Assembly: GCA_012729015.1 (NCBI GenBank) | Contig: JAAYDY010000054.1 | Location: 1 to 64,000 of the forward strand | Length of the DNA: 64,000 nt | From: Phycisphaerae bacterium | GTDB taxonomy: Bacteria > Planctomycetota > Phycisphaerae > FEN-1346 > JAACEH01 | Direction: 5' to 3' | Shown here: piece by piece, positions 41,717-46,320 of the stretch | Position numbering within the stretch: position 1 is the first letter of the stretch | Layout: each line of letters starts with the position of its first letter | Program-made: the position numbers and the translations under genes | Notes under the pieces: model-generated | Told to the model about the DNA's origin: nothing | Databases searched by the model: none | The model's input: the letters and a program-made list of their open reading frames with translations, nothing else

Positions 41717-43201
41717 ATGACCCGATTGTGCGTGGCGATTCGGCCGAAGACCACCGCCGAGGCCATCGACCAGATGAAACGCCTGGGCCGGCAGGCCGAC
41801 CTGCTGGAACTGCGCGTGGACGCCATGGACGAGTGCGACCTGGGGCGCGTGCTGGCGGCCCGCGCCGCGCCGCTCATCGTGACCAACCGCGCCGCCAACG
41901 AGGGCGGCTTCCGCCCCCAGGACGAGGCCCGCCGCCTCGAGGTGCTGGTCGAGGCCGTGCGGCTCGGAGCCGATTACGTGGACGTGGAGCTGGCCGCCCT
42001 GACGCGGTTTCAGCAACTGGCCGACGCCGTGCCGCGAGAACGCACCAGGCTGATCGTCAGTTGCCACAATTTCCAGCGGATGCCCGACGACCTGGTGGCC
42101 ACGGCCCGGCGCATCGATGCCACGGCGGCGGCCGATGTGGTCAAGGTGGTGGGAACCGCTCGCATGCCGGAGGATAACCTTCCCTGCTTCGAGGCGCTGC
42201 GGTCGGTGCGCAAGCCCGCCGTCGCCCTGGCCATGGGCGAAGCCGGACAGCCGAGCCGCATCCTGGCCGGCAAGTTCGGGGCTTGGCTGACCTATGCCAG
42301 CGAGGCCGCCGGCGCCGAGAGCGCCCCGGGACAAATCACCCTGGAGCAGATGCGGAGCCTCTACCGGGCCGACCGCGTGGGCCCCGCAACAGCCGTGTAC
42401 GCCGTCATGGGCAACCCCGTCGGCCACAGCCTGAGTCCGGCCATCCACAATGCGGCCTTCAAGGAACTGGGCATCGACGCCGTGTACGTGCGGCTGAAGG
42501 TCGAGGGCGACCCAGCCGCCGCTGTGCGCGCCCTCAGTGCCGTCCCGATCGACGGCTACAGCGTCACGATTCCGCACAAACAGGCCGTCATGGCGGCGTG
42601 CGTCGAAGTCGATCCGACGGCTCGCCGGATCGGGGCCGTTAACACGCTCATCCGCCGCGACGACGGTTACCATGCCACCAACACCGACGTGACCTCGGCG
42701 ATGCGGGTGCTCGCCGGCGCCATGGGCAGCGACGATTTCACGGGCAAGCGAGCCCTGGTCGTCGGCGGCGGCGGCGTCGGGCGGGCCTATGTGTACGGCC
42801 TGATCGGTCGCGGCGCCACAGTGCACGTGTCGGACATCGACGCCGCGCGGCGGGAACAGTTGGCCTCCGAAGCCGGCGCCACGGCCGTCGCGCCGGACCA
42901 CCTGGGCAACGTGCGGGCGGATATCCTCATGAACGGGTCGCCCGTAGGCATGTGGCCCAAGGTGGACGATACGCCGGTCGATGCGTCGCTCCTGCGACCG
43001 GGCATGGTGGTCTTCGATGCCGTGTACAATCCCCGGGAAACGCGGCTGCTGCGCGAGGCCCGGGCCGCCGGGGGCGTGACGATCAGCGGCGTGGAGCAGT
43101 TTGTCGGCCAGGCCGTCGAGCAGTTCGAGCTCTGGACGCAGCAGCGAGCCCCCTTCCAACTGATGCGGCAGGTGGTGCTGGACGCGCTTCAGTCTCACTG
43201 A
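41717..43201 (+). CDS. aroDE: Bifunctional 3-dehydroquinate dehydratase (type I) / shikimate dehydrogenase
   Basis: Fusion of two consecutive shikimate-pathway enzymes, 494 aa. Residues 1 to about 215 are type I AroD: ADLLELRVDAMDEC, LIVSCHNFQRMP with the catalytic His, ADVVKVVGTAR with the Schiff-base Lys, and MGEAGQPSRILAGKFGAWLTY. Residues about 225-494 are AroE: AVMGNPVGHSLSPAIHNAAF, DGYSVTIPHKQAV with the catalytic Lys, IGAVNTLI, TNTDV, NADP loop VVGGGGVGRA and NGSPVGMWP. The same domain order occurs in plants and chlamydiae. It allows direct transfer of dehydroshikimate. Confidence 0.96.
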   Translation: MTRLCVAIRPKTTAEAIDQMKRLGRQADLLELRVDAMDECDLGRVLAARAAPLIVTNRAANEGGFRPQDEARRLEVLVEAVRLGADYVDVELAALTRFQQLADAVPRERTRLIVSCHNFQRMPDDLVATARRIDATAAADVVKVVGTARMPEDNLPCFEALRSVRKPAVALAMGEAGQPSRILAGKFGAWLTYASEAAGAESAPGQITLEQMRSLYRADRVGPATAVYAVMGNPVGHSLSPAIHNAAFKELGIDAVYVRLKVEGDPAAAVRALSAVPIDGYSVTIPHKQAVMAACVEVDPTARRIGAVNTLIRRDDGYHATNTDVTSAMRVLAGAMGSDDFTGKRALVVGGGGVGRAYVYGLIGRGATVHVSDIDAARREQLASEAGATAVAPDHLGNVRADILMNGSPVGMWPKVDDTPVDASLLRPGMVVFDAVYNPRETRLLREARAAGGVTISGVEQFVGQAVEQFELWTQQRAPFQLMRQVVLDALQSH

Positions 43202-45143: not shown

Positions 45144-45172
45144 TTGACAGAGAGGCCCGGAAAGGGTATGAA
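45144..45172 (+). promoter_or_regulatory. Promoter of the 25-codon basic ORF
   Basis: Perfect TTGACA (45144-45149), 17 nt, TATGAA (45167-45172). A leader hairpin CGCCCCC-GGCGA-GGGGGCG (45193-45211) followed by TCTTT lies between it and the start codon. The gap 44917-45244 otherwise holds only the divergent trpB promoter. Confidence 0.65.
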
Positions 45173-45244
45173 GGCGGCTTGAATTGGCTTGTCGCCCCCG
45201 GCGAGGGGGCGGCTGTCTTTGTGGGGTGACCAAGGGAGGGGCCT

Positions 45245-45322
45245 ATGCCCAGAAAGTGCAGACGACGTCGTAAGATCGGCAGCAAGAAGCGTGCCCAGCG
45301 TCGCAAACAGCGCAAGCACTAG
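45245..45322 (+). CDS. Very small, highly basic protein (25 aa), possible ribosome-associated peptide
   Basis: ATG at 45245, TAG at 45320-45322; begins MPRKCRRRRKIGSKK and ends RRKQRKH. 16 of 25 residues are Arg, Lys or His. It has a very strong ribosome site (AGGGAGGGG, 4 nt before ATG) and a TTGACA/TATGAA promoter, so translation is credible in spite of the size. The composition resembles the tiny ribosomal proteins of the bS22/AURKAIP1-COX24 type known from actinobacteria and mitochondria, but I cannot claim homology. Alternative: a nucleic-acid-binding peptide. Confidence 0.6.
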   Translation: MPRKCRRRRKIGSKKRAQRRKQRKH

Positions 45323-45475: not shown

Positions 45476-45519
45476 GGCGCAAGGGCAAGGCTCCTTGTTG
45501 TGGTGAAAGGCAGGTGGCC

Positions 45520-46320
45520 GTGTCATCGAAAGACGACATTTCCGGCCTGATGCGGCGATGGCCGTTCGATCCGGACAATTACCTGAGACGGATTGTCGGG
45601 GCAGACGGGCGGCCGAAACTCCAGGTGCGGTTTCCGATGGGACTCGAGCAGTATGAGCTGGACGGGCGACCGGACGGTCTGCGCCCCATGGACTGCGAGT
45701 CCTACCTCGACTACTATCAGCAGTTGCGCGATGCCGCCGTCGCCACGAGCGGCAAACAGGACTCGTTCGGCCTGACTCCGGGCGACTGCGAGCATCTTCG
45801 CCTGGAGGCGGACATCTACCATTACCGCCTGGGCCTGCTTTACCGGGAGCGAGACTACGAGCGAGCCGCGGCGGATGCGGCGCGCAACCTCCGGGTCTTC
45901 GATTTCGTAGCGCAGTGCGCCGAACGCGCCGAGGACTCCGAGCTGTTCGATCGGCATCGGGCGTATACGGTCCGCGTGCTGGCGGTCAGCCGGGCCATGA
46001 TCTGGCTGCGGCGGGGCGCCTACGAAGAGGCCTTTCGCCATGTGCGCCAGGGGCTCCAGCAGTTGGAGCAGATGGCGTCGCACCTGGACGACCGCGACCG
46101 GCGTCAGTGGCGTCAGTCGCTGGCCCGCCTGCGGCGGCTGGCGAGGCACATTCAGCGCAACAAGCCGCTGACGCCGCGACAGCGGCTGCAAAGGGATCTG
46201 AAGGCGGCCGTGGATCGGGAAGACTACGAGTCCGCGGCGCGACTTCGCGACCAGTTGGCCGCGATGCCACAGGCGGCGGCCGAAACGCCGCCGCCCGGGT
46301 TGCCGCCCAATGCCCCGTAG
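45520..46320 (+). CDS. UVR-motif protein, otherwise uncharacterised
   Basis: 266 aa. N-terminal region LMRRWPFDPDNYLRRIVGADG, FPMGLEQYELDGRPDGLRP; the middle is helical and TPR-like (GLLYRERDYERAAADAARNL, RGAYEEAFRHVRQGLQQLE). The C-terminus has a UvrB/UvrC motif, LKAAVDREDYESAARLRDQL at about 229-248, as in McsA-type or UvrB partners. GTG at 45520 is preferred over the GTG 6 nt upstream because of the AAAGG spacing. Planctomycete-type conserved hypothetical by my recollection. Role unknown, perhaps protein-protein contacts. A terminator follows at 46403. Confidence 0.72.
   Translation: MSSKDDISGLMRRWPFDPDNYLRRIVGADGRPKLQVRFPMGLEQYELDGRPDGLRPMDCESYLDYYQQLRDAAVATSGKQDSFGLTPGDCEHLRLEADIYHYRLGLLYRERDYERAAADAARNLRVFDFVAQCAERAEDSELFDRHRAYTVRVLAVSRAMIWLRRGAYEEAFRHVRQGLQQLEQMASHLDDRDRRQWRQSLARLRRLARHIQRNKPLTPRQRLQRDLKAAVDREDYESAARLRDQLAAMPQAAAETPPPGLPPNAP

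Follow-up and report, generated by a model that had tools for sequence, protein, structure and literature searches.

Does a reading frame of 25 codons in planctomycete DNA encode a protein and, if so, of what kind? Tiny ribosomal proteins are missed in inventories because gene finders skip them and because their low complexity defeats homology searches. An earlier note on the 64 kb of DNA analyzed here (the window) had proposed that this frame could specify such a protein, one perhaps peculiar to its lineage, since its size and charge are those known from bS22/COX24-like proteins.

The open reading frame and its signals

The coding sequence occupies positions 45245–45322 of the forward strand, from an ATG at 45245 to a TAG at 45320–45322, and is assigned on the basis of its translation, its homologues and their synonymous-only variation. 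Its product, MPRKCRRRRKIGSKKRAQRRKQRKH, is 25 residues long, and 15 of these (60%) are Lys or Arg. The description of an extremely basic 25-codon frame is borne out, and the frame is the sole one in the window, on either strand, with at least 50% Lys plus Arg (ATG, GTG or TTG starts, 20–40 amino acids). Thirty first-order Markov copies of the window contained a mean of 0.03 such frames, none of which reached 60%.

Upstream on the same strand, a −35 element TTGACA (45144–45149) and a −10 element TATGAA (45167–45172), both read directly, are separated by a spacer of 17 bases. The promoter that had been claimed for the gene is present in this sense, although "near-perfect" overstates a −10 that matches at 4 of 6 positions, and a simple promoter scan of the window did not list the site because this element lacks its final T. 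The ribosome site, AGGGAGGGG (45233–45241), which had also been called near-perfect, does contain the Shine-Dalgarno core GGAGG (45235–45239, forward strand, read directly), ending 5 bases ahead of the ATG, but is not the full AGGAGGU.

Between promoter and ORF, in what is presumably the 5′ leader, lies a strong GC-rich hairpin (45191–45213, forward strand) with TGTCTTTGTG, a T-containing tail, behind it. It was picked up by a scan for terminator-like sequences and by folding, looks like a terminator and could be a leader control element of the window species only. Across 112 loci there was no conserved RNA structure in the 5′ leader, and a comparison with Rfam gave no match above threshold.

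Evidence for a coding gene

A search of 101 genomes identified the peptide in the nearest relative (G001, the other member of the taxonomic family), where the ORF is intact and its product identical at 24 of 25 residues (96%). The stops or frameshifts in close relatives that the earlier note had named as grounds for refutation were looked for here and not found. The two coding sequences are distinguished by 7 synonymous sense-codon changes, a single Cys/Ser change and a TAG/TAA difference at the stop, and the sequence flanking them has strongly diverged. In the same search, RRRRK[IV]GSKKR was seen in short open frames across the class to which the source genome belongs. The 86 distinct homologous peptides, of 24–28 amino acids, were gathered partly via the motif; within this set KxRRRRK[IV]GSKKR is essentially invariant, with 11 consecutive residues fixed except for an Ile/Val exchange, and Arg and Lys are never swapped.

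Of the pairwise codon differences among 127 distinct core DNA sequences, 52219 are synonymous and 3162 non-synonymous when read in the coding frame, compared with 3949/48923 and 1278/50994 in the two shifted frames, the pairs not being independent and part of the set having been collected with the core motif. Taken with the full-length profile matches, this difference between frames is strong evidence that this family of ORFs codes. That the 25-codon ORF is a genuine gene is near certain.

Expression signals across homologues

An SD-like tetramer lies just 5′ of the start at 127 of 132 loci, compared with 13% of control positions. Among 112 distinct upstream regions, 67 have a promoter score of at least 9/12 where 22.6 are expected from a simple base shuffle, and 23 score at least 10/12 (3.7 expected). 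In the nearest relative, TTGACA-17-TACAAA stands roughly as far from the start codon as the promoter does here. The gene is thus usually equipped with its own promoter. Hairpins 3′ of the stop, somewhat enriched (28% of loci with z < −1.5; mean z −0.94), fit an independent transcript. Codon usage is suggestive of high expression: CGT accounts for 4 of the 9 Arg codons of the ORF, a small sample, compared with 8% in six window genes, and for approximately 20–30% in many genes of the ribosomal protein cluster of the same genome.

Distribution in the Planctomycetota

Of the 296 class genomes with completeness of at least 90%, 125 proved in profile searches (E ≤ 0.001) to carry the family, nearly always in one copy. 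A pattern scan of GTDB genomes returned at least 117 contigs, nearly all with planctomycete names; one Syntrophaceae contig among the matches listed (L081) proved on translation not to contain the motif. Since the scan pattern encodes the motif and the matches listed are a lower bound, the taxonomic limit and the invariance of the motif are in part conditioned by the search, a bias of which the profile matches, including those in the 125 genomes, are free. Within the class, carriers belong to families such as f1, f2, f5, f7, f9, f11, f13, f16, f20 and f115. Outside it, longer sister peptides such as MGTKKTGKGRRKIGRKKRRMRAKIRHRK are found in families f45, f86, f95 and f32, with the form GTKKTGKGRRKIGRKKR in f45 and a further form, AFKPRRRRKIGSKKR, in f67. 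As a whole the protein family spans 24–31 amino acids.

Searches recovered no recognizable copy in several sister families (f3, f4, f15, f18 and f21), in f14 and in others of the class, nor in the near-complete genomes of two close relatives, one from the genus of a carrier (G068) and one from a family of carriers (G056). A DNA synteny search for the absent copy in these two genomes gave nothing informative, and the gap amounts to either recent loss or rapid divergence. The protein is therefore not universal even within its own class, as is also true of the accessory ribosomal proteins S21, L25, L30 and Thx (PMC3353972).

Genomic neighborhood

The downstream neighbor of the window ORF (45514–46320, forward strand) encodes 268 amino acids with a C-terminal UvrB/UvrC motif (Pfam PF02151). 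The same gene follows the ORF at 191 bases in the window and at 147 bases in the nearest relative (locus L002), and the genes upstream differ. The common downstream gene indicates that the locus is orthologous, and the expectation of a conserved ORF at the same locus in relatives holds for this pair. More widely, neighbors change from lineage to lineage, so that the function is a standalone one. Downstream genes are often on the opposite strand. No ribosomal protein, rRNA or tRNA gene was recognized beside family members in the lineages sampled.

Two further features of these regions were recorded. In one sublineage, a conserved protein of approximately 100 amino acids (MIQCxxCELCExGPDGRxxFKCDPF...ECIAKWQLxRLDML; no Pfam match) is encoded divergently from the tiny gene, just upstream and on the opposite strand, at loci L104, L138, L078, L170 and some 60 more; after it come genes for ECF-sigma-like and for membrane-anchored, anti-sigma-like proteins. 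At 41717–43201 the window itself contains a gene in which type I 3-dehydroquinase is fused to shikimate dehydrogenase (Pfam PF01487, PF08501 and PF18317).

A probable ribosomal protein

A peptide with fixed Arg and Lys residues that is too short to be an enzyme and is encoded by a mostly single-copy, standalone gene is best accounted for by a near-invariant partner, for which rRNA is the obvious candidate. The distinction of Arg from Lys at invariant sites suits specific contacts with rRNA. Size, charge, single copy, an own promoter, the Arg/Lys-specific invariance and, on few codons, an Arg codon use suggestive of ribosomal protein genes all fit such a role, and the family is probably a lineage-specific ribosomal protein. 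The earlier note's proposal to this effect is supported as regards a tiny basic protein that is translated, strongly conserved and specific to its lineage, and plausible as regards the ribosome. Searches of Pfam, NCBIfam and PDB sequences with single peptides and profiles gave no match, and we found no planctomycete ribosome structure in the literature. These negative searches count against the ribosomal reading, as do the neighborhoods free of recognized ribosomal protein, rRNA and tRNA genes and the gaps in sister families and in two close relatives.

Ribosome binding, site, mechanism and abundance are what we infer for the peptide. It would be made in quantity from its own promoter and captured during assembly of the 30S subunit or the 70S ribosome, where it would lie as a short basic rod, probably helical, in an rRNA groove. 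RRRRK and SKKR would bind the rRNA, the fixed Arg and Lys residues making base- and phosphate-specific contacts that stabilize the groove. As to the site, a single pocket between helices h27, h44 and h45 of 16S rRNA accommodates bS22 in bacteria, mS38 in mitochondria and eL41 in eukaryotes and archaea (PMC10085706), and by analogy with these proteins we tentatively place the family there, at somewhat short of even confidence. In that pocket, located at the neck and the interface between subunits, the peptide would make the upper part of h44 more rigid and bridge the two subunits at one more point, as has been described for mS38 and bS22 (PMC6582356, PMC10085706). Taken as a whole, the account that we favor, by a modest measure, is of a usually single-copy, probably highly expressed gene with its own promoter encoding an Arg/Lys-rich ribosomal protein of the Planctomycetota, with h27/h44/h45 as its likeliest site.

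Relationship to bS22 and mS38

Tests failed to show membership in bS22/COX24. PF08213 (COX24_C) matched none of 18 family members and nothing in the source genome, a weak negative because the same model also misses the experimentally seen bS22 of F. johnsoniae and B. burgdorferi. Run on the family and bS22 profiles, hhalign paired KIG with KIN/MSK, which is the register expected, at a raw E of 0.0055. Under column permutation, comparison with 12 classical bS22 sequences gave p = 0.55 for the ungapped score and p = 0.26 for hhalign, and shuffled-sequence scores gave p values of 0.08–0.6. As the similarity does not reach significance under control for composition, membership is not claimed. A profile merging bS22 with the new family retrieved no bridging sequence beyond those known already.

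Classical bS22 genes do occur in 7 other planctomycete genomes (families f25, f31, f41, f61, f69 and f94), for example MPCGRKRRRAKINRHKRKKRSRQNRHKKR and MSSVIKKRRKKMNKHKHKKLRSRMRHKSKRKK. These genes (loci L177, L178, L179, L214, L215, L216 and L217, around 1501) are of two types, MPCGRKRR...NRHKK and xSVIKKRRKKM..., the former falling below the Pfam COX24_C cut-off. The new family was detected in 39 of the 195 genomes among which these 7 were found (E ≤ 0.003), and in none of the 7. An overlap of zero where approximately 1.4 is expected is compatible with one protein replacing the other but is not significant, and genome families are not independent samples.

Alternative readings

It is conceivable, at perhaps one chance in three, that the family is a new ribosomal protein of the Planctomycetota that shares no descent with bS22, eL41 or mS38 and has come independently to fill either the h27/h44/h45 site or a new pocket. 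Rather less likely is a ribosomal protein, likewise unrelated by descent, at an rRNA site other than that of bS22, whether new or resembling that of bL37 or Thx. Such a reading draws on the lack of a significant sequence link to bS22, on a 7-residue match to bL37, K.G[RS]KKR (p = 0.05, 1 of 5 tests), and on the report of Thx in one planctomycete (PMC3353972). The bL37 match fails multiple-test correction and the DRK..NHGKRPN tail is absent, so full-length likeness was rejected; Thx (bS31) was rejected in turn, its RGKIxxGxxGxxRP motif being absent (p = 0.94). Among the sequences used in these comparisons, PDB entries confirmed those of bS22, yeast eL41 and Thx. The C terminus of E. coli bS21 was also tried and rejected: p = 0.007 in 1 of 11 tests became 0.65 by permutation.

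A nucleic acid binder acting outside the ribosome, as a DNA-compacting or RNA-chaperone peptide, seems unlikely. A composition of 60% Lys and Arg would suit any polyanion binder, and an HU-like gene lies approximately 1.4 kb downstream of the window ORF; this gene was not seen adjoining the ORF in relatives, and the run of fixed residues without Arg/Lys swaps argues against a role of this kind, as DNA condensers that act by charge only usually tolerate such swaps. Very improbable is a regulatory leader peptide (uORF) through which attenuation or arrest would control the gene downstream. A co-directional gene does follow at the short distances given above, and a different one does so in many Sedimentisphaerales, but against this stand the variation of downstream genes by lineage and their frequent opposite orientation, selection on the whole peptide, and the hairpins beyond the stop, which are expected of an independent transcript. 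An untranslated chance ORF, for which small size is the only argument, is ruled out by the homologues, the synonymous-only variation and the conservation of SD and start.

Comparison with known tiny basic proteins

Like bS22/mS38 of M. smegmatis, C. acnes, F. johnsoniae and B. burgdorferi, the probable ribosomal protein described here is tiny, highly basic and encoded by a standalone gene; bacterial bS22 proteins have 28–33 amino acids, are approximately 55–65% basic and are often missed by annotation. The two can be aligned through a basic run, one hydrophobic residue (Ile, Val or Met), then a small one and a second basic stretch, in a register no better than chance for such compositions. The family lacks both signatures of bS22, MGSVIKKRRK..KKK and MPxGxKRK...HKRKK...NRHKK. 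Plausibly, and by analogy, the family works like bS22, with no claim that it is bS22.

Such proteins are close precedents for the family, both in size and in how they came to light. In mycobacteria and C. acnes, bS22 and bL37 were discovered only as cryo-EM density (PMC10085706), and bS22 of B. burgdorferi lacked an annotation before its density was interpreted (PMC10618245). The actinobacterial bL37, found only by cryo-EM, resembles the present family in being basic, lineage-specific and 24 amino acids long, but differs in its acidic and Asn-His-Gly-Lys-Arg-Pro-Asn parts; Thx/bS31, a protein of the 30S subunit, is similarly basic, with 25–27 amino acids. If the family is ribosomal, the parts list of the ribosome of a large phylum changes, and a sequence stands ready for unassigned density.

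Similar in size and charge is eL41/aL41 (now also eS32), which has 25 amino acids and occupies the pocket proposed here, but is confined to eukaryotes and archaea. Its similarity to the family is nothing beyond composition (p = 0.82). With human eL41 as the query, C. acnes yielded no match, even though both occupy that site (PMC10085706), so there is precedent for a sequence-unrelated peptide in the pocket. The placement proposed here, if true, would test whether one rRNA pocket repeatedly takes unrelated basic helices, and, should the family be unrelated to bS22, eL41 and mS38, it would be one more instance in which a short basic helix of separate origin takes up one conserved rRNA groove.
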